Assembly (NCBI GenBank): GCA_024195585.1
Contig: SWBL01000038.1
Span: forward strand, 62,001-126,000
Length of the DNA: 64,000 nt
Reading direction: 5' to 3'
Source of the DNA: Aureobasidium sp. EXF-3400
Taxonomy: Eukaryota; Ascomycota; Dothideomycetes; Dothideales; Saccotheciaceae
Part shown: piece by piece, positions 27,466 to 45,181 of the stretch
How the letters are laid out: each line of letters begins with the position of its first letter
Position numbering within the stretch: position 1 is the first letter of the stretch
Notes under the pieces: model-generated
Database searches by the model: none
Told to the model about the DNA's origin: nothing
Seen by the model: only the letters and a program-made list of their open reading frames with translations
Made by a program: the position numbers and the translations under genes

Positions 27466-29750
27466 GTTTAATGCGGTTGTTGTTTATGTGTGTCTGTTTT
27501 TGCGTGTTGTGCCAAAGAGAAGAAGTGAGTGAGTGAATGTGTTGTCAACCAGGAAAACAAGCGAGCGTGTAGCAGGGTGTGACTGAGTGACCAGAAACAA
27601 GAAGAGAGTGGATGGACGACCAAACAAAAGGGCCAAGAAATGCGATGGCTGAATGCTTTACTTATACCATTATATCGAACTCCTTATTGAATCCAGCCAT
27701 TTTTTCCTCTTCCCTTCGCACGTTCGCTCAAGCAAGGTACGTTAAAGGGTCATGGGAAAACGGCTTTCCCAATACGCTACCGATGGTTGTCACAGGGAGA
27801 CAGATAGAAGCCGTGACCAACGAAGCCGTTGTTCGCGGCTCTTGCAGTGACCTCGAATCATCTACCAGCCTTATCTCCTTCGCAGAACAATTCCTGATCA
27901 TTTTCGCATGCATGGCCTTCACATGATGTATTGTTGTTGACTTGTCTGCCTGTGATTTGTGAGACAGCAGACAAAAGAGGCGTGTTTCAAAGGGGGTGGG
28001 TGTGGTTCTCAGGAGCAAGACCCGGACAAAAGTTTCAACGGTCGACCCTATGCTGTGCAACCGTTGCGCGATACTGCTGCAAGGAGTGAATTTTTGTGCT
28101 CTCTGACGCGTATAGGGAGTCAAAGTAAAACGTGAATAGAAAGCATGAACAAAAAAAGATCAAGCGGACAATCGCGATGCGCTCGATAGTCAAGCAAGCC
28201 TCGCGACGCGACCAGACTTATCATGCGACTTACGTGCAAACTCTCGCCAGTACTTACGATGGTCATCAAGCATTGAGCATCTCGGTGAAGAGATGCGGGA
28301 TATGCTTTTCTACATACCGCCCATTGTCACTCCTGACCTGGATGACTCTAGACCCAGTGCCTCGGCTTCGTCGTAGTACCCCATTCCATGGTTGCTCACT
28401 CCCTTGCTCTTCAAACAAGATTCGACCCATCTTGTGCTCTTTGTCCAAAGCGTCCATTGTTCCCCTCGTTTCCATCCGGCACATTGTTTCTCGCAAAGGG
28501 CGCATCGATAGGCTTCGACTCCGGATTTTGTTTGAGCGCTCGACAAAAACGGCTTTACAACAACGAGAATGACGAGGATTCTAGACGACGGTGACGACAA
28601 CAGACGATAGCGACTCGGTGTATCACAGGCGACAGCGAAGGGCCGATGGTTCGATAGACGGGATTTGCGTCGTTGTCCAGCCACGCAGCGCAACCGGGAT
28701 AGGCATCTTCATTACCAACGTCTATCGTCGAAGCCAAACGGCTTGCCTATTTCGAGTCGCAATGGAGCATTTCGTTCTTCTGTCGTCGCGGAGATGCGAA
28801 CGTATGTTCGTCTAAATTGTCAGTGGGTAAAGGCGACACGAGGAGATGGTATGGGTTGGAGAGGTGATGGAGGAACTCTTTGGTGAGACATTGGTCCGTG
28901 CTGTCCGGCATTGGTTTAACCTCCATCGCTCCTTCTCGAGTCTTCTACCTCACATATTATCTTCTCGGTGTGCGAAAATCCATCGCAACCTGAAACTTGA
29001 TCTGTTCATCATAGTGGATAGCCGATGCCCGAGATGCAAGGATGCACAAACGTCTCCAAGCAAGACTCCTGAGCCATCTCTGGTACCTCGAGCAACATCG
29101 CCACAACTAACTTCTTGAATTGAGTGCTCTTATGCATCTCGGATTACCAGAGGGTAACCAGATCTACGAGAGTTTATGGATGCTCGGTGCAGCAAAAGAC
29201 GTAGGAACAAAGTACTGGGAATCAGGCTTGACTCTGGACAAGAAAAACGGGACTGGTGTTGAATGCTTGAAGGTCATCTTCCCAGGTTTGACTTCCATCC
29301 GAGTGGTTAGTACATCTGCGGCATCACAGTCCTGGTTTCTGCTCGCCTTTTTACAATGGGTACCGTATCCCGTGAAGTATAAGTAATGCCAAGGTTTGTG
29401 GTATAGGACATCCCCACCGCCAAGGTCTGCAACCCCTCGTGCACAGCATTGGCGTACATGATGATACCGCGCTTGACCTGCTAAGCCACGGTATATGGGT
29501 TAACAATCGTCTGATGTGGGGACATTTGAGGTTCGGTATGGAGATATATGGAGAAGATGGCTGGAGAATCTTTGCACTTGCAAGGTTTCTATGCCTTGGC
29601 TCCCCCAGCAGCTGACCATGATCTGTCGATGTTGAGATGGAACGGCAAATAATACGGCACCGACGCTTCTTGCTCGAGATGAATTGTATAACTAAGTTAG
29701 TTCCTCCGTCATAAACTACCACACAGCTGCCAGTTATCACGATCATAAGA
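27466..29750. other. Long spacer without supported genes
   Basis: About 2.3 kb between the start of the AA11 gene and the GH3 pseudogene. Frames of up to about 145 codons occur (for example 28132-28572 plus), but composition and absence of motifs speak against them. Part of it may be old decayed coding sequence. Confidence 0.35.
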
Positions 29751-31658
29751 ATGCATACACCATCTCTATCATGGAGCCGTTTGCTCTTCCCTGTTCTCTG
29801 CCTATCGCCTTGGGTTTCAGCAATTTGATGCTCCTCATGTAACACCACTCCATCCACACCTCAAGATTCGACAATTCTTCCCTACTTGGACCCTTCTCTC
29901 TGCATTAAAGATCGCCTCGATGACCTGCTCTCTCGCATGACTCTTGAAGAAAAGGCAGGTCAACTCTTCATCAAACAGATCTCCGCTGGCATTAACGGCA
30001 CAATCGACAACACAACTACCGTCCTCGACGGCACCAGAAACCTTACCACCGCACTCCTGATAACGGAAAAACTGCTTTCGCATTTCAACGTCAACAACGC
30101 GAGATCTGCAAAGCAAATGGCAGAATGACATAATGAAATTCAGGAGCTTGCTTTACAGACACGACTCGAGATCCCTGTAACCATCGCTAGCGACCTCAGA
30201 CATGCGTTTGCCGATACGGTGGGCAGCTCCATCGCTAGTGGCCAATTCTCCTAGTTTCCCGAAAGTTTGGGGATTGCGGCGTTGAGGGATCCAGTGCTTG
30301 CGGAACTTTACGCTACCATTGTGAGGGAGGAGTATTTGGCTGTGGGTATCAGATCTGCCCTTCAACCTCAGATTGACGTCGTGACCGAGCCACGCATGGC
30401 AAGGAGCGGACGAACCTTTGGCGAAGACGCGAACTTGACTGCATCTATGGTGGTCGCACTGATCAAGGGCTTCCAAGGCCCTGAGTTGGGCCTGACCTCG
30501 GTCACAACAGTCACGAAACACTTCCCTGGCGCTGGACCAGCTAGAAATGGCAATGACTCGCATTTCGCTACTGGAAAGGACAACACTTTGGCGATTTCCT
30601 CGATTACCATTTGATACCATTCAAGGCAGTGATTGCGGCTGGTGGGCGCCAGATCATGCCATCCTATGCCCGTCCAATTGGTACCAAATATCCGGAAGTC
30701 GCCTTTGGATTCAACAAACCCGTCATCACTGGTTTGCTTCGCGAAGAGCTGGGCCTTAACGGCATTGTAGTCAGTGACTGGGGCCTGATCACCGACGCAG
30801 AAATCATGGGAGTAATAGAACCAGCACGCGCCTGCGGTGTCGAAAACACCACCGAGCTCGAACGCGCAAAAATGGTTCTCGATGCTGCGTCGACCAATTC
30901 GGTGGCGAGATACGCACAGAGTTGCTCGTTCGACTTGTCAACGAAGGTCAGATCCCCGAGTCGCGACTTGATGTCTCTGTTCGCAAACTGCTGGAGGAGA
31001 AATTCATGCTCGGTCTTTTCGACAAGCGATTTGTGGATCCAGAGGCTGCGGAGAGAGTAGTTGGAAACCCTTGCTTTGCGCGCATTGACAATGAGACTCA
31101 GAGACGTGCATACACGCTCTTGACGAATAATGCGAATATCCTTCCCCTACGTCCTAAGGATGGCGCGAAGTTTTTCGCTCAAGGTTTCAATGCCTCGTAC
31201 CTTGAAGCCCGCAACCTGACTGTCGCAGACTCACCCTCGGAAGCAGATTTCCGTTTCTTGCGTCTCAGAACTCCCTGGGAAGTCAGAGGCTCTCCCTTCC
31301 GCCAGCGATACCTGAGGGACGCCTCGATTTCAACGAGACCGAGAAAGCTGCTCACTCTGCTTTCTTCAAGGCCTGTCCCACCATCGTGGACATGCTTCTC
31401 GATCGGCCAGCTGTGATACCAGAGATTGCTGAAGAGGCTGCTGCACTGTTTGGACATTATGGCGCTAGTGTTGACGCTTGTTTGGATGTCGTGTTCAAGA
31501 AGGATGGATGGAAGCCTGAAGGTAAACTGCCGTTTGACATGCTGAGAAGCATGAAGGCTGTGGAAGCACAGGTCGCTGAAGTGCCTTTCGATACCGAGGA
31601 CCCTATGTTTGAGTTTGGGCATGGGCTTAGCTATAACAGGACTGCTTTGTGTGGATAA
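29751..31658 (+). pseudogene. Broken secreted GH3 glycoside hydrolase
   Basis: A complete GH3 layout is readable across three frames. It starts with a signal peptide (ATG at 29751, MHTPSLSWSRLLFPVLCL), then LSRMTLEEKAGQLF, IPVTIASDLRHAF, the VTKHFPGAGP motif, the nucleophile region NGIVVSDWGLITD, the second domain with AVIPEIAEEAAALFG, and the usual end FEFGHGLSYN. Lesions are TGA at 29826, TGA at 30126 (where Trp is expected before HNEIQELA), TAG at 30252, and frameshifts near 30588, 30890 and 31310. Each shift moves the frame the same way, as single-base deletions would. No splice pattern repairs them. Substrate was probably a beta-glucoside or related sugar. Confidence 0.88.
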
Positions 31659-32067
31659 AAGGACGGAGTAAAGACAGCGAAGGATAAATCTCAATCATGC
31701 TTGGGCCCAGGAAAAGCTTTGAACAGTAACTAAAGCATCTTTCAGGATGTCAAGGGGCAATGACAATCGAAACTCAAGTTCGCGGTATCATTGTCGGTTC
31801 AGATGGCTTGTACAAGCTGCGACTCTGTCTCCAAAGTATTTGACTACCAGACCAGATTTTGCTTCTAGTCTGGCGCACTGGTGCATCGCAACATTGAACA
31901 TGATTGAGAAGCATATAACGTAGTTGAGGATTGTTTCAGTCTGGTGAAGGGAAGTCGTCACTTCTCTTTGGAGATGATGTTTTGAACAAGTCACTCAAAA
32001 GTTCTATGGGATGCACAAAAAATGGGATATGTCAGGGTGTTATGGACAATACCTGGCCAACGATCGA
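31659..32067. other. Convergent spacer
   Basis: Between the end of the GH3 pseudogene and the stop of the aminotransferase. Nothing recognised. Confidence 0.3.
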
Positions 32068-33435
32068 TTAGAGCGGGACAGCAGGTTGCTCGTGGTCACC
32101 ACCCAATTTACTGTGAGACTTCAACACCTCGCCAAATGCGGCATCGAGAATCTGCAGACCCTCCTCGATCTCCTCGGCAGATACAGTTACAGGCGGTGCT
32201 AATCTGAAGACACCACCCATCCCAGGAAGGTTTACAATGTTGCATGAGAGACCGAGAGCCATGGCCTTGTCAGAGACTACTTGCCCGATGTCAAGACCGG
32301 GCGCTTTGGTCTCAGGATCTGAGATGATTTCGATGCCTTGGAAGAGACCACGTCCTCGGAGATCTCCGATGCACCAGTATTTCTTCTGAAGTTTTTCAAG
32401 GCCTGCTCGGAGTTGAGCGCCGCGTTCGCTGGCGCGTTCGCAGATGTTGTCGCGCACCACGATCTCGAGAACTTTGTCTCCAACTGCTGCTGTGAGAGGG
32501 TCGTTCAGATGAGTGGTGAGCCACAAGAAGCGCGCCTCGCGACATCCTCTTTCAATCTCAGCTGTTGTGGTCACAGATGCCAAGGGCAAGCCGCAGCCTA
32601 GGGTCTTGGAGAGAGCAAGGATGTCTGGCACAATACCGTCTCTCTGAAAGGCGAACATCTGTCCAGTACGTCCGACACCGGTCTGCGCTTCATCCAGAAT
32701 GAGGAGCATATCCCTCTTCTTGCATTCTTCAGCCATGCGCTTGAGGTACCCAACAGGAGGGTCAAGGATACCACCGGTAGAGAGGATTGGCTCCATGATG
32801 AACGCAGCCAACGAGCCCACGCTTTGACGATCAATCATTGCCCAGCCATACTCCAATTCGGTCTCCCAATCATAAGAACCATCGGCTTTCTTGAAGGGTG
32901 AGCGATAAGGGTATGGCGCGGGAAACGCTAGTTGACCAGGCATTGCCGGACCGCCAAATTTACGTCCTGCCGAATATGTGGCCGATCCAGAGCCTGAAGT
33001 AAGTCCATGGTAGCTAGCGGTGAAGGCGACGATTTCGAACTTTCCAGTGTAGCATTTTGCCATCTTGATGGCAGCCTCGGTCGACTCAGAGCCTGTGTTG
33101 AGGAAGAAAGATTTCTCCAGAGGTGCAGGAAGCAGACTGGCCAAGCGCACCGCTAGATTGACAACTGGCTGAGTGATCATATTGCTGAGCAAATGATCGA
33201 GTTCGCCAACGTGTTTCCGAACGACCTCGACAATTTCGGGATGAGAGTGTCCAAGAAGAGAGCTCATCTGACCAGAGGTGAAGTCTAGAATTGATCTACC
33301 GTCCGCATCGTAAAGTCTTGTACCTTGAGCCTTCGTAATAATGACTGGTGAAAATGGAACACCAGTATGCATGAGATGCTTGTCAGCATTGTCCCAAAAG
33401 GTGCTTTCCGCAGTTGGTTCGGTCTTGGAGATCAT
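32068..33435 (-). CDS. Class III aminotransferase, 2,2-dialkylglycine decarboxylase type
   Basis: Single exon, 455 aa from MISKTEPTAES; an earlier in-frame ATG at 33486 would add an unlikely hydrophobic leader. PLP residues are present: Asp249 in LILDEAQTGVGRTG and the Schiff-base Lys277 in ALSKTLGCGLPLA. The dialkylglycine decarboxylase signature LDFTSGQMSSLLGH holds Gln56, the position of the glutamine that promotes decarboxylation in the bacterial enzyme; DRQSVGSLAAFIMEPILS and the Arg in GVFRLAPP also fit. The active-site Trp next to the HG motif is Tyr here (SYHG). Expected reaction: decarboxylation-dependent transamination of dialkylglycines such as 2-aminoisobutyrate (Aib) to a ketone, with pyruvate as acceptor. 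First gene of the 32-40 kb block. Confidence 0.88.
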   Translation of the reverse strand: MISKTEPTAESTFWDNADKHLMHTGVPFSPVIITKAQGTRLYDADGRSILDFTSGQMSSLLGHSHPEIVEVVRKHVGELDHLLSNMITQPVVNLAVRLASLLPAPLEKSFFLNTGSESTEAAIKMAKCYTGKFEIVAFTASYHGLTSGSGSATYSAGRKFGGPAMPGQLAFPAPYPYRSPFKKADGSYDWETELEYGWAMIDRQSVGSLAAFIMEPILSTGGILDPPVGYLKRMAEECKKRDMLLILDEAQTGVGRTGQMFAFQRDGIVPDILALSKTLGCGLPLASVTTTAEIERGCREARFLWLTTHLNDPLTAAVGDKVLEIVVRDNICERASERGAQLRAGLEKLQKKYWCIGDLRGRGLFQGIEIISDPETKAPGLDIGQVVSDKAMALGLSCNIVNLPGMGGVFRLAPPVTVSAEEIEEGLQILDAAFGEVLKSHSKLGGDHEQPAVPL

Positions 33436-33558
33436 TTTGTGAGAGAGAAGTAGATGGATAATGAACGAGAACAGTATCCTACACAAGATTTGAGCTGTGT
33501 TATAGAAGAGATGGCGAGCTCACAAGACTCAAGCCATGGATGCGGGAAGGTGCCATTG

Positions 33559-33582
33559 CCGCGGGGGCATAGTTTCCCGCGG
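33559..33582. promoter_or_regulatory. Paired CCGCGG sites in aminotransferase / regulator promoter
   Basis: Two CCGCGG palindromes at 33559-33564 and 33577-33582, 18 bp apart, 124-147 bp before the aminotransferase start in the divergent spacer 33436-33991. Abutting CGG half-sites are a plausible target of a Zn2Cys6 dimer. The same hexamer recurs at 38244 in the other divergent promoter of the block. Confidence 0.4.
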
Positions 33583-33991
33583 AAAATTTTGGGCGCGGAG
33601 AAGACGACTGCTTACCCTATCGGCCAGTGCAGAATCTCGGGAACGCAAGATGAGCTGCAACTCCTCGACACAGAGGCGGCTAGGTAGGATCTTGTACATG
33701 TTCGATGACACTTGTGGTCGGAACGAACGCTCAGGTGGAACACGTCCGTTGCTTGTAAAGGAGGATACAATACTCGGCGGCAACCAAGTGTGGGGGTTTT
33801 GGCAGAGCCCGATGTCATCCCGGACAGGGAGTTGTTATCTCTGCTGGGAGCTGTAAACACCTCCAACTAATTGCTGCTGGACTGCGACGTTGTCTTTCGA
33901 CAATGGGAGTCGCGAATGACCTCACGGAAAATCCTTGACTGTCGGCGGCCCTCTCTGTCTCCAGCAACGAGCTTTTCATATCCAAGCAGTC

Positions 33992-36094
33992 ATGCAAACC
34001 TCAAATCAGGGTCGGCCCTATCGCTCACATCTCCGACCTGCCTGCGATGCCTGTCGTCGTCGCAAGTCTCGATGCACTACAACAGAATCTTCCGACGCGT
34101 GTCTGATGTGCCAAGTTCATGGTTCGCAATGTGTTTTTGTGGACGGTAATCAGTCGCGTCGCCGAAAAGTGCCTACGTCGCGAAGCCGTGCCACAAGCCA
34201 TGCAGATAACTCTGAGGACAATATCAACTCCGAGGATAACTCCTTATCTATGGCATATCCTCAGGATTTTCAAGTCACAGATGTCGTTCAGTCTGATAGT
34301 CAAATATACAACAACGATCAAGTATCATCAACGAATTCAGCTGCTCCGCGTGCTCCGGCCATTGAGAGATCGCTCGAAGAGGTTAGAATGAGTGCCATGC
34401 TCGCCGAGTCGGGAGACTCTACCACGCAAATCATCAGTCCTGCAATAGTCGACGATAATGATGAGCTCGACAGCTACCTATCCAGTAATCCGGCGGTCGG
34501 TCTACGAAGGATCACCCGTACTTCGTCGACTGGTACAAATATGGACCCTCCTTCAAGACGTGTCCTGTTCAACACAGTCCTCAGAAAACCGCTCGGCACC
34601 AATGCGAGTCAGTCCATCGCTGCCGGAAAGCTCGAAATCATCGAGAAACTACTCGAGCCCCACGTCACGGACATGATCGATCTGTATGTCACTCATGCTT
34701 TGCGAGAAACGTACAACATGCTGACCAGCCTCCAGTTTCTTTGAGAATGTCAATGTTTGTTTTCCGATCCTGGACGAGATTTCTTTCCGACGAACGTACA
34801 CCGAGCATAAGGACCGTCTCTCTTGTGCTCTTCTGGCCAACTTGTATGCCAATGCAATGACATACTGGAAGAATTCGCCACGACTACGCTCTTGCCATCG
34901 CCCAGATCAACGCTACATATGGGTCCAGGCCAACGAGGCTCTTCACTCCGAGCTCTTCCTCTCGCCTGGAATTTCGACTGTCATATCTATCGTCTTGAAT
35001 GTGTACGGAAGACCAAGCACCTCGATGTTCGGCAATGGAGGGATGGTGGGCACGGCTGTGGCTCTTTCTAATTCGTTGGGACTCAATCGTGACTGCTCAG
35101 CATGGAACATCAGTCCCGAAGAGAAAGCATTTAGATTTCGTATCTGGTCAATTGTCGTGCTGATGGACCGGTGGTAAGTCGTTCTCATTTCCTTGTGTTT
35201 ATCGCAACCAACCGATGGTACTAACTTAGGCACAGGACAAGTCTCGCATATGGTACGCCACTGCTGATTCATCGTGCTCAATATGATGTTGCTGTACCAA
35301 GCAAAGATCTACTGGCACAATCTAGACTGTCCACTGCGCAGCATGCCGGCTTGTCCATTTTTCTAGCCATGTTAACTCTGACGGATGTTCTGTCGCGGTA
35401 CCTCGAGCACGTCTACCATATATCACGGACTGCTACCACCGATCAACCACTAGTCTCACCGTTCCATCTCGAAATGTTCTTGACGGATTGGGAAGACACT
35501 TCAGAGGATGACATACGTCGACTTGTCCTTCGGGGAAATGATCTTGATCGAGCCGGAGCAGCTAATCTCAGACTTTCTTATCTTGCGGTCAAGCTCCTAC
35601 TTCGCCGGATCCTGTGCGACACTGCCAGCTTCTCGTCAGAGCCTGAGAAGGCAGCTCAAGCTCGATTGCAGACCCAAAGAGTAGCTGAAGAGATAGTACT
35701 GCTTGTACAAGAGCTGAAACATCCTCACCTTAGCGGGTTTTGGATGCCAATGAACGGCTTCACACTTACCTCTGCGACCCTGTTCTTGCTAAGAGATGCA
35801 CTGAAGGCTACCAACAGAACCCGCAATACATCGCTCAAACTGGCCAAAGATATGATTGCATGCCTTCAAATACATCGAAACAACGAAGCTTGGGATCTGG
35901 CAGACGATTGCTTGGCAAACTGTACAGAAATGACTGACAGAATCGAGGCTGGGAGGAACTCTGAACCTTCCGACGCGGCCGAACCTCAACATCTTGTTGA
36001 CAACGATTCACTCATGTTCAACGATGCGGTCTTAGGCTTCGCAAGTGCGTTTGACTTTGACATTCAGAACTTTCAATGGAACGACAATGCATGA
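33992..36094 (+). CDS. Zn2Cys6 transcription factor, likely pathway regulator
   Basis: Three exons: 33992-34683, 34736-35173, 35236-36094 (introns GTATGT..CCAG and GTAAGT..ACAG), 662 aa. Starts MQTSNQGRPYRSHLRPACDACRRRK. The zinc cluster follows the CX2CX6C..CX2CX6C pattern (ACDACRRRKSRC, then CLMCQVHGSQC) within residues 17-46. The middle region (TDMIDLFFENVNVCFPILDE, ALLANLYANAMTYW) is typical of fungal regulators of sugar and amino-acid catabolism. It sits between the aminotransferase and the transporter and is divergent from the former, so local control of the block is a natural inference. Confidence 0.9.
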
Positions 36095-36202
36095 AAATGA
36101 ACCTAACAAGATATAGCACCAGTAGAGCGTAGCCACCAACGGACAACTTCCCCCAGACCAAGACCACGAAAGCGCTTGTATGTCTTCCAAAATCCTTTCG
36201 CG

Positions 36203-37933
36203 TCAATACACATACTTCAAACAGAGCGTGGTCAGCGAATATCTTCTCCGAACACCTGCCTAAGAGACCCACCTTAAAGTTCTGGTTCTCGAGATCTGTC
36301 TCGTTGTGGAGCCCTCGTAACTGTCCTTCAGCTATGTGGTCCGCCGACAGTGCATTCTTAGCAGCCCGCTTACGATTCCGGGAGAGAAACAGCAGATATA
36401 AGCCTAGGATACTCAGAAACTGGATGCCAAGGCAGGTCAGCATCATGCCCACTCCTAGCTCATATCGCGGCGCTTGAGCTTTGCGAAAGAAAAATGGTCC
36501 TATGAAATTTCCAAGACAGTAGCCGATGAGAAGCATCGCAGCACTTGTTGACTTCTTGGTGTGTCCAGCTGTGTTCGCTGTCACAACGGACATAGAAAGT
36601 GTCCATGTGGCAGTGTAGGTAAATGTAATCCACAAGCACACCATGCGGCCCCATGGCACGCTTGATGGCAGTGTCCACATTCCAATGACACCAGCTAATG
36701 TCGACAGCAGACAAACAAACATAGTGAGCAGTCTTGCGTTCTCGAAGGAAGAAGCTACAAAAGTTGCGAACGTACAAACCACAAACTGGATGGCACCTGA
36801 AGGCATCTGGATCAGTGTGGTCTGTAGTTTCGAAAATCCAAGGCCACGAATAATGAGACCTTGGAACGTGGTGAGCCCACCGTTAGGTGCGTTACTGGAT
36901 ACTGCGAAGACGAAGAGCAACCAAGTCTTTGTGTCTGTCAGCGTCTCCAACATTTGAGCTTTTTTGAAAGTTTTCTCTTCGAGTCCGGTCCCGTTAGCCC
37001 TGACGCGCTCGGTGACGCCTATCTTCTCTACCTCCGAGAGGAACTTAGCCGTGGCAGGGTTGTCGGGCAGAAAAACAAGTACCACGACGCCCCAAGCGAT
37101 AGTGACGCATCCCCAGATGAGGAAAGTATATCGCCAGCTGGACAAGGCGCCATGAATATGTCCGATACCGAAGCTCGTGATGCCGGCGACAACGTAACCA
37201 AGCCCGGCACAACCGATCCAGACACCCAGGCGCAGAGGTTGCTCCATGCGCGTGTACCAGATACTGAACATGACCATTGTCACTGGTTGTATGCAAGCCT
37301 CAAATACGCCGAGGAAGAATCTTGCAGTTGCCAGTCCAGCAAAGTTGTGGCCCGCTGCATGGCAGGCCAATGTAACGCCCCAGAGAATCACCTGACTGCT
37401 GTAAGTGTCTTTCTAAATCGACTCCATGCACCTGGTAATAACTGACCGATACGCCCAGAAACTTTGCAAGCGGAAATCTTTGGAGCAAGTATGATGTTGG
37501 CCATTCCCAAAACATGTAGCCAAGGTAGAAGATAGCCCCAAGCCATGAGTATTCAGACCCGGAAAGGTGGGTTTCGTCGGCCTGAGGTGCACTGTGTGAG
37601 CTGCGTCTACTGGGTAGGAAAGACACTCGTCAGACTCACGAGCCCGAAGACGGCCGCATACGACAAGGTCGTCTTGTCAATCGACTGCAGCGCGTAAGTT
37701 ATGCATCTGGGTGGTGTCAGTAACATCTTCAGCGAAGAAAGATCTGAAGAATGGACTTGCAGTATTGGCATCAATCGACAGTCGATCTTGAACAAAAGCT
37801 TCTTGTCATCGACGGCAGACAGGACTTCGCCTGTCTGAGTTGTGTCATACGTGGTTGTCTCGTATGGGAGAGTCTTTAGAGCCAGGTCTACAGCCGCTTC
37901 TTTTGTGGTGCGTTGTGATAGTCGAGACTCCAT
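36203..37933 (-). CDS. MFS anion:cation symporter, Dal5/allantoate permease type
   Basis: Five exons: 37761-37933, 37640-37706, 37453-37581, 36273-37391, 36203-36214; 499 aa, phases close. Intron 1 (37707-37760) uses a GC-AG donor (GCAAGT). The last exon is 12 nt and encodes YVY-stop, restoring the family ending NFKYVY. Family features: KIDCRLMPILCITYALQSID before TM1, then SEYSWLGAIFYLGYMFWEWP, ARFFLGVFEACIQP and RKAQAPRYELG. Twelve membrane spans expected at the plasma membrane. Relatives import allantoate, ureidosuccinate, dipeptides, nicotinate or other carboxylates. The neighbouring dipeptidase, with which it shares a promoter region, suggests a small peptide or amino acid. Confidence 0.92.
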
Positions 37934-38243
37934 GTTACGCGGAGATTGTAGAGCCTAGTATCAAGTTGATTGCATGCCTTACGGGGCCCACGCTCTTATA
38001 TCCCGTCTGGGGATACTCGACCAACCGATAACCAGGAAACTGCAGATACAATTTCCCACGGACAACTCGTTCACTTCCCCGCCGTAAGACGAACCCTAGG
38101 TATTGGCACAAACCACTATGACGGCTGTGATTAGATTGTCAAATGATTCAGCCCCGCACATCGGCTATATCAAGATAGGCCAGGCAGATAAGAATGCGGC
38201 GGAAGCGGGGAGTGCTTTCCTATCTAGCTTATTACTGAGTTTG

Positions 38244-38249
38244 CCGCGG
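38244..38249. promoter_or_regulatory. CCGCGG site in transporter / dipeptidase promoter
   Basis: Lies 108 bp before the dipeptidase ATG and 311 bp before the transporter ATG, in the divergent spacer 37934-38356. Same hexamer as at 33559 and 33577. I noticed only one other CCGCGG in the window, at 56171. Confidence 0.35.
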
Positions 38250-38356
38250 ACCCGACACAGAATCCGTTACATCATGAATACAATTCATCGTTCTTCGCCT
38301 AAACAACATTTACAATCGGAACTTCAGTGCTCGTAAGGACTACATACGCCAAAGCA

Positions 38357-39791
38357 ATGTCGGACAACAACCAAGTTCACCCATACCAGCTTCTGGACAT
38401 TGATGAAAGAGTCAAACGAGTTCTGCGCAACACGCCGCTTGCAGATGGACATAACGACCTCCCTCAGCAACCACGATGCTGCTTTAAAGGCAAGATACAT
38501 AACAATCCTAAGTTCGATCTCGAAAAGGGTTTCCAGCGCGGCATGACCGACTTGCCACGCCTAAAGCAGGGTGCTGTTGGACTGCAATTCTGGTCAATTT
38601 GTGTACCTCATCTTCGTGGCTCTGAGGACTTTGCTTTACCTCAATATAACGATATGTGTTGTGATGCTATTGAGCAAATCGATCTTTCTATTCGCATGGT
38701 CAAGCAGTATCCCAAGGATTTTGAACTTATCTTTGGACCGGAGAATGTCAGGAACATATATCAACAAGGGAAGATTGCTTGTTCACTGGGTCTAGAAGGG
38801 TTGCATCAGGCCGGAAACTCGATTAGCGTGATTAGGGCTTACCACCAATTGGGCATAAGATATGTGAGCAGAATGTTTCTAATCCCCGCTATGGTGTGCG
38901 CGTGACTAACAAGGCAGTGCACAATGACGCATGTTGAAAACAATGCTTTCGCGGATTCTTCTACGTCCAAGGTAGGACCAGTTCACGGAGGACTGTCAAG
39001 CTTGGGGAAGGCAGCGGTCAAAGAGATGAATCGTCTAGGTAGGTGGCCACCCCATACATTCAGAACCTTGCACAGTCAAACAAGTAACAAGGACTGACAC
39101 AGTTCTAGGCATGATGGTTGACCTTTCTCACGTCTCACCGGAAGCAGCAGAACAAGCCCTCAAATGTACAGTCGCCCCTGTCGTCTTTTCTCACAGCAAC
39201 GCACGCGGTGTTTTCGACTGCCCTCGTAACGTGCCAGACTCTGTCCTCGATCTTGTGCCCGCCAATGATGGGATAGTCATGGTCACTTTCGTGCCCGAGC
39301 ACCTCGCAGCCAGGAGGTCTGAAGCCACGGTAGACATGCTTCTCGATCATTTGTTCTACATGGCGAATAGGATCGGATGGGAGCACGTTGGTCTTGGCTC
39401 GGACTTCGATGGTAAGCAAAAATGTTTGCGTCTGCTTCTCAAGTATGGCCTTGTTGACACTATGACTGTAGGGATTGCGTCTGTCATCCCTGGTCTTGAG
39501 GATTGCTCTCGCTTCCCTGCTTTGCTGCAAGCCATCTTGGACCGTGGTGCTACAGAGGAGCAACTCGCACTAGTCGCTGGAGAGAACATACTTCGGGTAT
39601 GGACAGAGGTTGCTCAGGTTGCTGAACGTATGCAGGAGGATGGAGTGACACCTGTAGAGGACGTGTGGGAGGGGAGAGAGTTCTGGAGGTATGATGGGTA
39701 TTATCAGATGTCTGATCCTGATCCTGAGGATAACCTTGGTCTTGATTGGTATGGAGTTAAACCTCCCGAGGAGGGCTTGTATCATGATTGA
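38357..39791 (+). CDS. Membrane-dipeptidase family (M19) metallopeptidase
   Basis: Four exons: 38357-38863, 38918-39038, 39109-39411, 39472-39791, 416 aa. The zinc ligands of the renal-dipeptidase family are visible: the HxD pair in LADGHNDLP, the bridging Glu in [10 protein letters not shown], the histidines in DLSHVSP and FSHSNARG, and the Asp in GLGSDFDG. No signal peptide or GPI tail is seen, so it should be cytosolic, as are most fungal M19 enzymes. The family hydrolyses a wide range of dipeptides, including dehydro- and D-residue types. Placed next to a Dal5-type importer and a dialkylglycine decarboxylase-like enzyme, it could release the amino acid the latter degrades. Intron 3 is 60 nt, in frame and stop-free. 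Confidence 0.92.
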
Positions 39792-40154
39792 TGTCAAGTA
39801 AGAGGTCAGTGTAGCTTCGTCAACGAAAAGAGCAAACCTGGCCATGTCAGCAGGGTGACCACAACACAGTCCTACTACAATAACCACGATACCCCGTGCT
39901 TGCGACCGTCTCATCAATCAAACTTTGAACAGCAGTACGAATACTGCTTTCCAGCAACTTCACTGCTTGCTGCTTGTTCAAGTGGGGAAAGAACTTTCTA
40001 TTGATTTCCGTCGTCGCCTTGTTGCGTCGACGACATCACGGTCACTCACTGCGAGCCAAGCTCTGTTCGTCTCCTTTTCACGCTTTCTAACACCAAATAC
40101 TACGTGCATCCTCACATCAACACTTTGCCGTGCGCGACCCAAACTCTGCTCAAC
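39792..40154. other. Short spacer
   Basis: Between the dipeptidase stop and the first F-box-like gene; pyrimidine-rich before the ATG at 40155. Nothing else seen. Confidence 0.3.
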
Positions 40155-40901
40155 ATGGACGACATTCAACTCGACAACCTGAGTATCGGTGGTGTGGCTC
40201 GCACTCGTCCATTGCAGTTCTTGGATCTACCCAAAGAGATCCGCATGATGATCTACCGCTATGCTTTGCACAGAAGACTCATCAAGAACTCATTTCCTGC
40301 TCTTCTGTCTGTCAACCGTCTGATCAGAAAGGAAGCCAGCACCACCCTCTACCGCCAGAACCACTTCCTCTTGAACCTGCAGCCACAACCTCACACAACC
40401 ACCACCGTGCTTGGTCTCGACGGCAAGACTCGCGAATGGCTTGCTCTCATCGGCCCTAAGCACATCAACAACCTCCGTCACGTCGTCTTCTCTTTCCCCG
40501 GCACCAAAGTCTATCACTTCGATTACAACGAATACTTCATCGATCTGTCGTGCCGTGACGCTGGCGGCTGGGATTTCTCAATCACCACCGGCCCCTGCAG
40601 ACTGTTCAGAACGCTGCAGGGTGACCTTGATGAGGCCCAGAGCGACACTCACTACACTGAGATCGCCGACTTCCTCAGATCAACCGGTTTCCCAATCTCC
40701 GACGCCGTCGTCGCCGACTTCAAGAGAAAAGGCATCATCAGATACACAGCCGCCCTTCGTTGCGCACAGGAAGTGATGGATCAGTTCAGTGATCAGTGCG
40801 GTGAGGGCAAGTTGGTCAAGCCTACCATCGCTGCCCTCGAGATGATTAGTCGTGTTTTCATGGCCGTCGAGCAGGCTCGTTTCGGTCATGATGATTATTG
40901 A
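40155..40901 (+). CDS. F-box-like protein, tandem copy 1
   Basis: Single exon, 248 aa from MDDIQLDNLSIGG. RPLQFLDLPKEIRMMIYRYAL at about 17-37 is an F-box-like helix followed by LLSVNRLIRKEASTTLYRQN, the usual layout of a large class of fungal F-box-like proteins. It shares distinctive blocks with the next gene: KTREWLALIGPKHINNLRHV, IDLSCRDAGGW and GEGKLVKPTIAALEMI. F-box proteins recruit substrates to SCF ubiquitin ligases; the target is unknown. Confidence 0.75.
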   Translation: MDDIQLDNLSIGGVARTRPLQFLDLPKEIRMMIYRYALHRRLIKNSFPALLSVNRLIRKEASTTLYRQNHFLLNLQPQPHTTTTVLGLDGKTREWLALIGPKHINNLRHVVFSFPGTKVYHFDYNEYFIDLSCRDAGGWDFSITTGPCRLFRTLQGDLDEAQSDTHYTEIADFLRSTGFPISDAVVADFKRKGIIRYTAALRCAQEVMDQFSDQCGEGKLVKPTIAALEMISRVFMAVEQARFGHDDY

Positions 40902-41358
40902 TTTGCTGAGCACATGTCCATTGGACTGAGGCTCTGAAGTTGTGAACGTCGATGGCTAGGGAAGTTTCAAGGATGCTGTCGCTACCACAATACGACCTAC
41001 AGCTTGGTGGTTGAGGATTTCACGCAAAACACGAAGCACACAAAGCAAGATGAGGGAGAATCGGAGGGTTGCAGTCAATTTTGTATAACAGAACATTGAG
41101 CTAGAGAATGCTTAATCACGAGAACTGGTCACTACATCCATCTCAAGACGCACGATTGTCTGACTACACGTTTTTTATGCCAGTTATGGTGAAGCTATAC
41201 AGTCGTGATAGTTCTCCAAGCAGACTCATGACGAAGGCAAGCAGCAATAGTGAATCTGTTATCCCTCGCTATTGAGTACTTGAGTGTTTACGTTTGAGGC
41301 TAAGCAAACGAGTAAGGAACACCGCTGATGTGAATGTTGGGTCCGGAATATTGTTACT

Positions 41359-41577
41359 TCCTCCCCGTGTAGTAAAGTATATGTAACGCGTATAGCTATA
41401 GAAATGCATGATAGTAATAGGAAACAAGATGGTATCCACTGAGGACTAACAAGTTGTCGACTCTCTATGGACATGCCTCTACTTCCCCAAAGACTTGTGC
41501 CTTTTTATGGTCTACGTTTTGCCACTAGCTGTAGTCGGAGTGAGGTGAAAGTTACAGACTTTGGTACCCGGGGAGGT
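41359..41577 (-). mobile_element. Foldback MITE, copy D
   Basis: Ends are inverted repeats: CCTCCCCGTGTAGTAAAGTA at the left, and on the opposite strand from the right CCTCCCCGGGTACCAAAGTC, both continuing into TGTAAC. Aligns in reverse with copy C at 22543-22760. Inner arm AGCTATAGAAATGCAT is shared with copies A and B. A second GGGGAGG just outside at 41580-41586 makes the right border uncertain by about 10 bp. Confidence 0.75.
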
Positions 41578-41685
41578 TAGGGGAGGTGACGAGACGTTTT
41601 CCTTCACCCCGTTTCCGTCACCTCAGAATATCTCGTCCATCGTCCTGTCTCCAATCAAGCATCCGATTGCTGGACCACCTCTACG

Positions 41686-41740
41686 GTAAGACGGGAGCAA
41701 ACCTCTACACCGCCGCGAGGGCCGAGCTAACTTCTCACAG
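41686..41740 (+). other. 5'-UTR intron ending at the ATG of F-box-like copy 2
   Basis: GTAAGA donor, GCTAAC branch site, CACAG acceptor, 55 nt. The acceptor is immediately followed by ATGCTG. No ATG lies upstream in the joined frame, so the intron is in the leader. Confidence 0.6.
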
Positions 41741-42778
41741 ATGCTGCTCGCAATGGATCGTGTTGGACAGACTCGCGCACGACGACTCCGCCAATTTGAG
41801 CTCTTGCTCAAGGAGTGCGAGGAACGTGATACGGTCTGCTACTGTCAGCTGCGTGTCAACTTGACAGCAAACAGATCCTCAATGCGTCCAAACAGCCGCA
41901 ATCGTGCTTACCTCAAGCGGCTCTTGCGTAAGGACGATGACTGGCACAACCCTTACGCTAATCTCAGCAAAGAGGACGCTCAGATTGAGATAGCTGCACG
42001 TGGTATTCGCTTGGACAAGGACGCCAACGATTCTCGCTATGCACTGCGTTGTGCACTGCAAGCTGCAGACGATCAGCGTCAGATCCCTTTCTTGCGCCTG
42101 CCCAAAGAAGTCCGCCTGCTTGCGTACGAGCACGTTGTGCGCGATGACCCAGTCGCACTGGCCCGTCCACCTCTACTCTCAACCAACAAGCAAATCAGAG
42201 AAGAAGCCAGTCCTATCTTCTTCCGCCTCACGAGCCCCCGCCTGGACGTGTACCAAGGTGCCTACCTCGCCAGCGAACCTAAATTCGACCCGAAGACCCG
42301 CAAATGGCTTGAGATTATCGGTCCGGATGGCATCAAAGAGCTGCGCAACATTTCGCTCGCAAACGGAAACGAAGAATACAACATCGACTTGTCTTGCCCC
42401 GATGCTGGCCAGTGGAGCACCACACTCCGCCCTCAAGGCTACACACCCAAACCTCATCACTCTCGCCAAAAATGTTCTGCCAGAAGAGTAAAGATATTGG
42501 CAGCACACCTCGCCGATGCCAGGAGAGCTGTCGAAGGAGACGTGGAAGATATGGCTCAATCAGGCGAAGACCCGATCACCTTGGAGAAGCTCCTCGAGCA
42601 CAAGGAGTCTGCTCATGAGTGTGTTCAGGATGGAATGGATATGTTCGCTGCTCTTTGCGGCCAAGGCAAAAGCGTTGAACCCACCATCAATGGACTTGAG
42701 ATCCTCGTTGATGCCATCACCGCCAAAGATCAGAAGATGCGAGACTTCGTCAACGCTATCTTGCGTGGAGAAGTCTGA
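41741..42778 (+). CDS. F-box-like protein with N-terminal SAP-like segment, tandem copy 2
   Basis: Single coding exon, 345 aa; start at 41741, directly after a leader intron (an alternative ATG is at 41753). FLRLPKEVRLLAYEHVV at about 117-133 is the F-box-like helix, followed by LLSTNKQIREEASPIFF. Paralogue of the 40155 gene: KTRKWLEIIGPDGIKELRNI, IDLSCPDAGQW and GQGKSVEPTINGLEIL align. It carries an extra N-terminus of about 100 residues in which LSKEDAQIEIAARGIRLDK resembles a SAP nucleic-acid-binding motif. Function unknown. Confidence 0.75.
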   Translation: MLLAMDRVGQTRARRLRQFELLLKECEERDTVCYCQLRVNLTANRSSMRPNSRNRAYLKRLLRKDDDWHNPYANLSKEDAQIEIAARGIRLDKDANDSRYALRCALQAADDQRQIPFLRLPKEVRLLAYEHVVRDDPVALARPPLLSTNKQIREEASPIFFRLTSPRLDVYQGAYLASEPKFDPKTRKWLEIIGPDGIKELRNISLANGNEEYNIDLSCPDAGQWSTTLRPQGYTPKPHHSRQKCSARRVKILAAHLADARRAVEGDVEDMAQSGEDPITLEKLLEHKESAHECVQDGMDMFAALCGQGKSVEPTINGLEILVDAITAKDQKMRDFVNAILRGEV

Positions 42779-43544
42779 ATGTCGTGTGCTAGGGACGGTT
42801 ACAAGCTCTCTGTGGATAGGCTTCTGATCGCGAAGACAGTTGTGCCTTTTTGCAGTGTACGTTTTCGTCTTCTCTACACTTGGAGTACTACGAAATTCAT
42901 AAAGCCAGAAGACAGGGAGGTGGGACAGGGGTGAAAAAGGGTCAGTTGCTAGATCACTCCAGTATACTCCAGAAAACAATCTTAGACTGTCGTTGAGACT
43001 GAGGCAAAGCAAGCAGAGATCCTTGTATGGTATGTTAGTGCCTGAGATGGTAGGAAATTCACAAAGTGTGGTTAACATGTCGGACGAGTCCGAATTCGTA
43101 CTCTAACCCCGCTCTTTCCTCCAGCCATCGCGCCAACCTTGTCATGACCACAACCCTTCCCCGCGCATTTTCGCCAATGCTCGCCCAGACATACCTAACA
43201 TGCCCTGCACGTTTCCAACTAGGAGCCAAAAACCGGATACCCCCAATCGGTATAGCCGTCTCGGCGGCACGAATCGCACCAACGGGCGGATGCCTTCGAA
43301 CAGTAATCCACACGACCATCCCATATCCCAGACGTTCGTTCATCATGAGCAGATGCGATGAGACTGGAGAAAACCTGGAGAACAAACTGGAGACCCCAGG
43401 ATGTCCCCGCATGAAGTATCCTGGTTCCAAACGTGTAGGCCGTCTCGAGTCGAGCATATAAGATGGTCGATCATTCCAGTCGACTCTCGCTCATCATCAA
43501 GCTCCTTGGCTCCTGACACAATTTGCAAAATCTCCGTATTCAAC
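42779..43544. other. Spacer with half MITE; promoter of sugar transporter
   Basis: Overlapping open frames on both strands at about 43060-43460 have no recognisable domain; the DNA has low stop density. Otherwise only the MITE fragment at 42805-42922. Confidence 0.35.
42805..42922 (-). mobile_element. MITE fragment, half copy E
   Basis: Matches the right half of copy D in the same orientation: CTCTNTGGAnA, GTTGTGCCTTTTT.nnGTNTACGTTTT, and a GGGAGG end. The other half is absent, consistent with an internal break or partial deletion. Confidence 0.5.
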
Positions 43545-45181
43545 ATGGCCATTGAACTTCGAGGCAATGCCCTCATCTCCATCATCCTCCTTGCCTCAGG
43601 TCTGGACTTCCTTCTCTTTGGTTTCGACCAAGGACTTTTTGGAGGTGTTTTGGCCGGCGATGGCTTCAAGCACATGCTCGGCAACCCGTCAGCAACGCGC
43701 ACCGGTCTTGTCACTGCCATCTACGACATCGGATGTGCTCTTGGTGCTGTCATGGCGTTTCTCGTAGGCGACAAGGTCGGTCGCAAGAAGAGTATCGTCT
43801 ATGCCAACATCATTGTCATAATTGGAGCCGCCATCCAGACTGCTAGTTTCTCGTATGCGCAGATGTGTGTTGCCAGAATCATAGCCGGTGTTGGAGTTGG
43901 CTTTTCTACTGTCGCAGTACCCATCTTGCAGAGTGAGACGCTTCCGAGCCGCAACCGCGGTGCTGTAAGTATTATCCTTTGTCAGTGGCGTGGGTCGAGA
44001 ATGCTGACAAGGCTACCAGCTTCTCGTCGTTCAGTCAGCTCTCATCATCATCGGCGTCGCTATCGCTTCATGGCTCTGCTTTGCCACTCTTTACTCCACT
44101 ACAAGCTTCCAATGGCGCTTCCCAATTGCTTGTCAGATGTTGTTCTCTGGACTTGTTCTTTGTCTCACACCATTTCTGCCTGAGACCCCTCGCTGGCTTG
44201 CTGGAAACGGCCGCACTGAAGAAGCTCGTCAGATCATTGCTCGTCTCGAAGACAAGCCAGTTGATCACTTGGACGTCGACAGCCAGCTCAACGAGATCTG
44301 CGAAGTCATTGCTATCGAGCAAGAAGCTGGCGACGCATCATGGGGTGAGGTCTTTACCAACTCTACAAAGTCGAGAAACTTGCACCGTGTCATACTTGGC
44401 ATGGGTCCTTATATGATGAACCAGTGGTCTGGAATCAGTAAGCGTATCACGAAATCGTCGAGAAATAGGATAGCGCTGACTGACCATGACAGACGCCCTC
44501 TGCTACTACCTCGCATACATCCTCGAGAACTACCTCGGCTATAGCCCAAGTATGGCCTTGATCCTCGCTTCCGTCGCTTTCACTCAGTACGCCATATTCT
44601 CCTGGCCCCCATATTTCTACATCGATCGTCTCGGCCGTCGTTGGACCGTCATTTTCTCAGCTATCGGCTGTGCAGCTTGCATGGCAGTCATCGCTGGTGC
44701 ACTAGTCAACCCAACCCACACCAACTCGATCGTCGCAGTAGCGTTCATGTTTCTCTTCATGGACTGCTTCACCCTCGGTATCCTCCCCGTCAGCTGGTCC
44801 TACTCTGCTGAGATCCAACCTCTCCGCGTTCGCAACAAAGCCACCGCTGTCGGCGTCTTCGGCCACTGGATGAGCAATTTTGTTGTTGTCATGGTCACAC
44901 CTATCGGACTTTCCAATATCGGCGGCAACTACTTCTGGGTGTGGGCCATCGTGAACGCTTCGTTCGTGCCTTTGACGTGGTTCTTTGGTGTCGAGACTTC
45001 CGGCAGAAGTTTAGAGAAGATCGATCATATGTTCTTCGATGAGCCGCGAGTATGCATGGGTTTGAACAAGAATCACATAAGGGTCATCAATAAGGAGATG
45101 TATGATGAGGAGAGGAGATTGAGCATGGCAAGGGACGAGAAGAAGATGGATGTTGAGCAGATCTTGGTCGTGAGCAAATAA
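43545..45181 (+). CDS. MFS sugar porter
   Basis: Three exons: 43545-43964, 44020-44437, 44493-45181, 508 aa. Sugar-porter motifs: GFDQGLFGGVLAGDGF in TM1, GDKVGRKKS after TM2, RIIAGVGVGFSTV, PETPRWLAGNGR before the central loop, DRLGRRW in the second half and VETSGRSLEKID at the end of TM12. Plasma-membrane proton-coupled uptake of a hexose or related compound is expected; substrate not predictable. Starts the 43-50 kb block with the lipocalin-like, SDR and Zn2Cys6 genes. A decayed copy of its 3' end lies at 58555-58660. Confidence 0.92.

Follow-up and report, generated by a model that had tools for sequence, protein, structure and literature searches.

Gene content and structure of the block

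The window, i.e., the whole stretch of 64,000 nucleotides of Aureobasidium sp. EXF-3400 analysed here (G000:C38:62001-126000; the assembly totals 53.4 Mb over 717 contigs), carries at positions 32068-39791 a block of four intact genes arranged as two divergent pairs. The first pair encodes an aminotransferase of the dialkylglycine decarboxylase (DGD) type and a Zn2Cys6 transcription factor, and the second an importer of the major facilitator superfamily (MFS) and an M19 dipeptidase. The block is considered here as a candidate regulon for the catabolism of peptides containing 2,2-dialkyl amino acids.

The DGD-type aminotransferase (455 aa; 32068-33435, reverse strand) is encoded by a single exon and matches Aminotran_3 (PF00202, E 9.9e-89). 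Divergent promoter A (33436-33991), with about 0.56 kb between the start codons, separates it from the gene of the Zn2Cys6 factor (662 aa, two introns; 33992-36094, forward strand), the product of which bears the domains Zn_clus (PF00172) and Fungal_trans (PF04082). The second pair comprises the allantoate-permease/Dal5-like MFS importer (499 aa, four introns; 36203-37933, reverse strand; MFS_1, PF07690, E 1.5e-38) and the M19 dipeptidase (416 aa, three introns; 38357-39791, forward strand; PF01244), flanking divergent promoter B (37934-38356; about 0.42 kb between the start codons). All four gene models, that of the M19 dipeptidase included, were built from splice signals and homology, and their start codons, stop codons and open frames were verified. 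No further gene was seen between the four, and the rebuilt models agree with the initial annotation of this DNA, which had described two divergent pairs with nothing unrelated between them; the gene identities it had assigned from the letters (DGD, Zn2Cys6, Dal5-type importer and M19) are likewise borne out by Pfam, by PDB matches and by the names of relatives. The regulator and MFS genes are convergent, with ends only about 108 bp apart (36095-36202), and the first MFS intron (37707-37760) has a GC-AG border with the donor GCAAGT and is required for the reading frame.

A second copy of the block in the same assembly

All four genes recur in identical order and orientation on a second contig (C50:170939-178676). 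Protein identity between the copies amounts to 95.6% for the DGD (455/455 codons aligned), 76.9% for the regulator (653/662), 92.1% for the M19 dipeptidase (416/416) and 86.9% for the MFS importer (496/499), at a synonymous divergence (dS) of 1.21-1.51. The ratio of non-synonymous to synonymous divergence (dN/dS) is 0.021 for the DGD, 0.115 for the regulator, 0.030 for the M19 dipeptidase and 0.062 for the MFS importer; purifying selection on all four genes is clear, though dS is near saturation. Since the whole block has been retained on C50 at a dS above 1, and since DGD, MFS and M19 bear near-consecutive tags in Elasticomyces elasticus, the clustering exceeds what chance would leave.

The flanks of the two copies differ in part in their arrangement. 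A sugar-transporter segment (window 43079-45179) stands on the M19 side of the C50 copy too, in the same orientation and nearer to it, while the DGD-side segment 14163-28949 is inverted in C50 and lies on the M19 side, past the sugar transporter. For the intervening GH3 region (28950-32057), the 40 kb of C50 compared contain no match reaching 100 bp. This rearrangement around four intact genes indicates that the border on the DGD side shifted while the block itself stayed together.

Two open reading frames (ORFs; 298 and 362 aa), which look related by eye through an L-LPKE-R stretch, occupy window positions 40005-42778 between the M19 gene and the sugar transporter; the corresponding gap in C50 is only about 1.6 kb, and both are seemingly absent there. 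Many stretches of window 14163-45179 are matched on C50, DNA identity being about 73-81%, and paralogues of the DGD and M19 genes likewise lie on look-alike contig pairs; two further M19 loci are on C287 and C288 (42% identical). On this pattern, the 53.4 Mb assembly looks like that of a hybrid or duplicated genome, or of two mixed species.

A near-exclusive site shared by both promoters

Conservation between the two copies was also traced in the promoters by a motif-independent search. Of the 545 12-mers of promoter A and the 413 of promoter B, 24 and 6, respectively, are conserved at no more than one mismatch, and the sole conserved 12-mer common to both promoters is AGTTTSCCGCGG. As a control, 664 other 424-bp segments, overlapping one another, were compared, and 20 of them match any of the conserved 12-mers of promoter A. 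Site A (AGTTTCCCGCGG; 33571-33582, forward strand) lies 136 bp upstream of the DGD start codon and site B (AGTTTGCCGCGG; 38238-38249, forward strand) 108 bp upstream of the M19 start codon, and both are kept in C50. A second CCGCGG (33559-33564) precedes the CCGCGG of site A by 12 bp, with the same order and spacing in C50, and this hexamer occurs six times in the four promoters of the two copies (1.9 kb) versus 11 times in 143.7 kb elsewhere.

Exact AGTTTSCCGCGG is present at eight sites in the 53.4 Mb genome, four of which fall in promoters A and B of the block and of its C50 copy. The remaining four were considered as marks of additional regulon genes and rejected, since each falls within a stop-to-stop ORF (265-897 aa). 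Two of these ORFs have Pfam domains above cut-off (peroxidase and Yip1), one has a domain below cut-off and one has none, and blastn among the four surrounding regions revealed no mutual homology. The near-exclusive occurrence of AGTTTSCCGCGG ties the importer and dipeptidase to the DGD and its regulator, and on this evidence all four appear to make up a single dedicated regulon. CGG triplets are the targets of Zn2Cys6 proteins, making the regulator of the cluster itself the natural candidate for binding the site.

HGATAR motifs, which are GATA-factor-like, are also present in all four promoters, a few of them at matching places in both copies; as evidence of co-regulation they were rejected, the motif being too common.

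The decarboxylase, the dipeptidase and the importer

The best PDB match of the window DGD is the Burkholderia DGD (E 4.7e-159, 533 bits), with the next enzyme kind at 227 bits; judged by these matches, the window enzyme is a class III aminotransferase closest to DGD. Six active-site residues are given for the Burkholderia enzyme, namely Q52, W138, M141, S215, K272 and R406 (PMC10169451). In the alignment, the equivalents of Q52, K272 and R406 are retained in the window DGD, in its C50 copy and in 120/120 homologues listed; thus, the GQMS glutamine to which the initial annotation had drawn attention is Q52 of the Burkholderia enzyme and is present throughout. The same position is readable, as Q, in 5/6 bacterial DGDs (the Agrobacterium sequence has a gap there), while of the two paralogues from the same genome in the alignment one carries I and the other is misaligned at this point. 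Among the 120 homologues, every one labelled with a species is from a fungus, and 68 are without a species label. In the side-chain pocket, the changes W138Y, M141L and S215T are found in the window enzyme, in its C50 copy and in 120/120 homologues listed, whereas the bacterial DGDs of the same alignment have W, M and S in 6/6 and Saccharomyces DGD1 is reported to conserve all six active-site residues, W138, M141 and S215 included (PMC10169451). The Burkholderia-type pocket, which the window DGD lacks, is taken as a mark of subtype and not of family; its replacement keeps the window DGD out of the Burkholderia/yeast subtype. Filamentous fungi thus seem, from the alignment, to carry a DGD subtype with a slightly different side-chain pocket; a literature search pairing dialkylglycine decarboxylase with Trp138 found nothing. 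None of the NCBIfam profiles reached its cut-off with the window DGD among the best 25 of 69 families; a single scan of a genome-contig collection with the DGD protein returned only two distant aminotransferases, and a single scan of viral contigs returned no match.

For the M19 dipeptidase, the best PDB match is the dipeptidase GliJ of A. fumigatus (E 1.8e-83), with which its motifs DGHND, EG, DLSH, SHS and GSDFDG line up; these presumably hold the metal-binding residues. No obvious signal peptide is seen by eye at the N-terminus, which fits a cytosolic role following import. Renal-type M19 dipeptidases act on substrates with a C-terminal D residue and, by analogy, the extra methyl group of 2-aminoisobutyric acid (Aib) should be tolerated there.

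Among the matches listed, the closest named relatives of both proteins of this pair are from Aureobasidium melanogenum (M19 95%, MFS 93% identity), and several listed relatives of the MFS protein have been labelled 'allantoate permease' by annotators. Within the allantoate-permease kind of MFS proteins, yeast Dal5p transports dipeptides, best those with small N-terminal residues (PMC1342634), and Seo1p, a member of the Dal5p family, imports gamma-Glu-Met (PMC7617739). The window importer is of the same kind, judged by the names of its relatives.

Gene order in other fungi

Synteny in other fungi was inferred from contig base counts and locus tags in three joined lists of protein matches (120 DGD, 104 M19 and 119 MFS matches), with 16 distant M19 matches (42-49% identity) and one MFS match lacking a contig omitted from the join. 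Each cluster is represented by its longest contig only and introns split metagenome genes, leading to undercounting, so that the numbers of shared contigs are lower bounds. Contigs in common number at least 3 for DGD and M19, at least 5 for DGD and MFS and at least 24 for M19 and MFS; comparison of the omitted M19 matches with 119/120 DGD matches gave no additional shared contig.

In Elasticomyces elasticus, a single contig carries the DGD (LTS10_004968), the MFS importer (004970) and the M19 dipeptidase (004971), and the tag between them, 004969, is presumably the regulator, going by tag order. All three proteins are also encoded on a 132,670-base contig of A. spectabilis, and one 8,015-base contig, recognised by its identical size in both lists, bears DGD and M19. 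In A. californicus, A. granulosus and Xylariales sp. PMI_506, a single contig holds DGD and MFS alike, the last being a weak case at 2.4 Mb. Among the matches listed, a contig in common is thus seen in five of the nine named species where both kinds of match are available, besides the 8,015-base contig; the Fusarium oxysporum matches belong to different strains and were left out of this comparison. A check for synteny, which the initial annotation had proposed, yields the recurrence of the four genes on C50 and near-consecutive DGD, MFS and M19 tags in E. elasticus, and not the lack of synteny that it had named as a ground for refutation.

Proposed function and alternative explanations

The block is best explained, with a probability of roughly 0.55, as a regulon dedicated to the catabolism of short peptides that carry a 2,2-dialkyl amino acid, most likely Aib derived from peptaibol breakdown. 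In such a regulon, the Dal5-like MFS protein would import di- and tripeptides, the cytosolic M19 dipeptidase would split them, and the DGD would decarboxylate Aib and pass its amino group to pyruvate, with CO2, acetone and alanine as products; for yeast DGD1, this last reaction of Aib and pyruvate has been described and in part demonstrated (PMC10169451). The Zn2Cys6 protein would sense the intracellular substrate and activate both divergent promoters via the shared AGTTTSCCGCGG, acting as yeast Dgd2p does. This Aib logic is plausible. A more complete version, in which the importer, a dipeptidase cutting Aib bonds, a filamentous DGD with a changed pocket, one Zn2Cys6 activator and one cis site together serve for feeding on or resisting peptaibol fragments, is advanced more tentatively, at somewhat less than even odds.

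Several observations, gathered here and in the next two paragraphs, weigh against the proposed regulon. With regard to the site, a reversed control pattern is commoner genome-wide than AGTTTSCCGCGG (15 versus 8 occurrences), so that the site is notable by its location and not by its number; in window-only shuffles, 10 of 100 reach two sites at no more than one mismatch, which is not rare; and AGTTTSCCGCGG was found post hoc in two copies that are homologous and hence not independent, for which reason no p-value is quoted. With regard to known systems, tblastn of six bacterial dgdA neighbourhoods gave a match to M19 or MFS in 0/6, and the permease adjacent to the yeast genes is reported to be dispensable for growth on Aib (PMC10169451).

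The strongest alternative regards the block as two independent nitrogen-scavenging pairs, the DGD and its regulator dealing with free Aib, like their yeast counterparts, and the importer and dipeptidase being a general dipeptide system that is not Aib-specific. Gene order elsewhere lends it some weight: M19 and MFS are widespread on their own, sharing those 24 or more contigs, only two of which (2/24, among the matches listed) also carry DGD, and having adjacent tags in five named genomes (E. elasticus, Zasmidium cellare, Neocucurbitaria cava, Neocucurbitaria sp. VM-36 and Capronia coronata). DGD and M19 are on separate contigs in the remaining four of the nine comparable species (P. hispanicum, A. 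steynii, Coleophoma cylindrospora and Neonectria ditissima), and of 42 DGD contigs of 5 kb or more without a species label only one, among the matches listed, coincides with an M19 or MFS match, that one being the 8,015-base contig. M19-MFS thus appears to be a wider unit that is linked to DGD in some lineages only, and the primary role of the pair may be general. The HGATAR motifs in all four promoters would, in addition, fit common nitrogen control. Nevertheless, general nitrogen control would not yield a AGTTTSCCGCGG near-exclusive to both promoters, and the block has been retained across a dS above 1; two independent pairs are regarded as unlikely, at about one chance in four.

A second alternative concerns the substrate, which might not be Aib but a different 2,2-disubstituted amino acid or a conjugate of one, for instance isovaline or a conjugate of 1-aminocyclopropane-1-carboxylic acid (ACC) from plants. 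It draws on the side-chain pocket of the DGD, which the changes W138Y, M141L and S215T set apart from that of the known Aib enzymes. All three replacements are conservative, however, and Q52, K272 and R406 remain in place. Filamentous fungi have, moreover, reportedly yielded DGD genes or activity (Adachi, 2003, cited also in PMC6514085; Esaki, 1994). Yeasts that use Aib also use isovaline (PMC10169451), and the ACC idea is speculation, all of which makes a different substrate rather improbable. Lastly, the block might belong to a secondary-metabolite cluster in which the M19 enzyme does what GliJ does in gliotoxin-type biosynthesis, but this is very improbable, for although GliJ is its best solved relative and a cytochrome P450 ORF (51015-52664) lies 11 kb off, no non-ribosomal peptide synthetase domain was found in the Pfam-scanned segments (10+10, with some repeats, most of the window lying outside the scan) and the nearest Pfam-matched neighbours are GH3 and the sugar transporter.

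Comparison with known systems

The closest solved structure to the window DGD belongs to the dgdA product of Burkholderia cepacia, and bacterial DGDs share about 56-58% protein identity with the window enzyme. Of 1961 plasmid records with a match, six were compared, and in 5/5 annotated plasmid loci among them dgdA is divergent from a regulator gene, as is the window DGD; the bacterial regulator is annotated as of the LysR type in four and as GltR in one, whereas that of the window is Zn2Cys6. The M19 dipeptidase resembles GliJ and renal dipeptidase in its fold family and motifs but differs from GliJ in its setting, since it adjoins an importer and the scanned part of the window shows no gliotoxin-type genes. 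Among Dothideomycetes, a DGD gene is also known in Mycosphaerella graminicola (DGD1; Adachi et al., 2003), the deletion of which is reported to leave morphology and virulence unaffected (PMC6514085).

A search for literature joining dialkylglycine decarboxylase with a dipeptidase found none, most subscription papers being outside the search, and no item on Aib cleavage was found among titles and abstract openings on dipeptidase with aminoisobutyric acid, peptaibol degradation and GliJ.

The nearest parallel is the yeast DGD1-DGD2-AAP cluster, in which DGD1 is accompanied by the Zn-cluster activator gene DGD2 and, next to these, by a gene for a putative amino acid permease (Tapia et al., 2023; PMC10169451). 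Growth on Aib as nitrogen source, release of acetone and induction by Aib were demonstrated there, with Dgd2p, a Cha4 paralogue, mediating the Aib-dependent activation of DGD1, and detoxification of peptaibols was proposed as a role for this catabolism. The claim of the initial annotation that no such fungal gene set had been described is therefore half wrong: DGD as such, the control that a neighbouring Zn-cluster gene exerts on it in yeast and the proposed connection with peptaibols were already known. The likeness between the two systems consists of a DGD gene beside a Zn2Cys6 gene and a putative transporter gene. The third gene, however, encodes a putative amino acid permease in yeast and an MFS_1 protein with relatives named allantoate permease in the window, and the accessible portion of the yeast report describes neither a dipeptidase nor a Dal5-like importer, both of which the window block has. 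What looks new here is thus the inclusion of an importer and a dipeptidase in the set, the near-exclusive promoter site, the conservation of the block and the filamentous pocket signature.

Mycoparasites such as Trichoderma use peptaibols as a weapon, and the Aib in these peptides renders them difficult to digest. In yeast, the use of free Aib was demonstrated, the entry and release of peptide-bound Aib being outside that account as far as its accessible portion goes (PMC10169451). By naming an importer, a peptidase, a regulator and an exact promoter site, the block opens the question of peptide-bound Aib to simple testing and, in addition, flags a filamentous-fungal type of DGD with a pocket unlike that of the bacterial enzyme. 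If the proposed regulon is true, the fungus could feed on peptaibol fragments or resist them.

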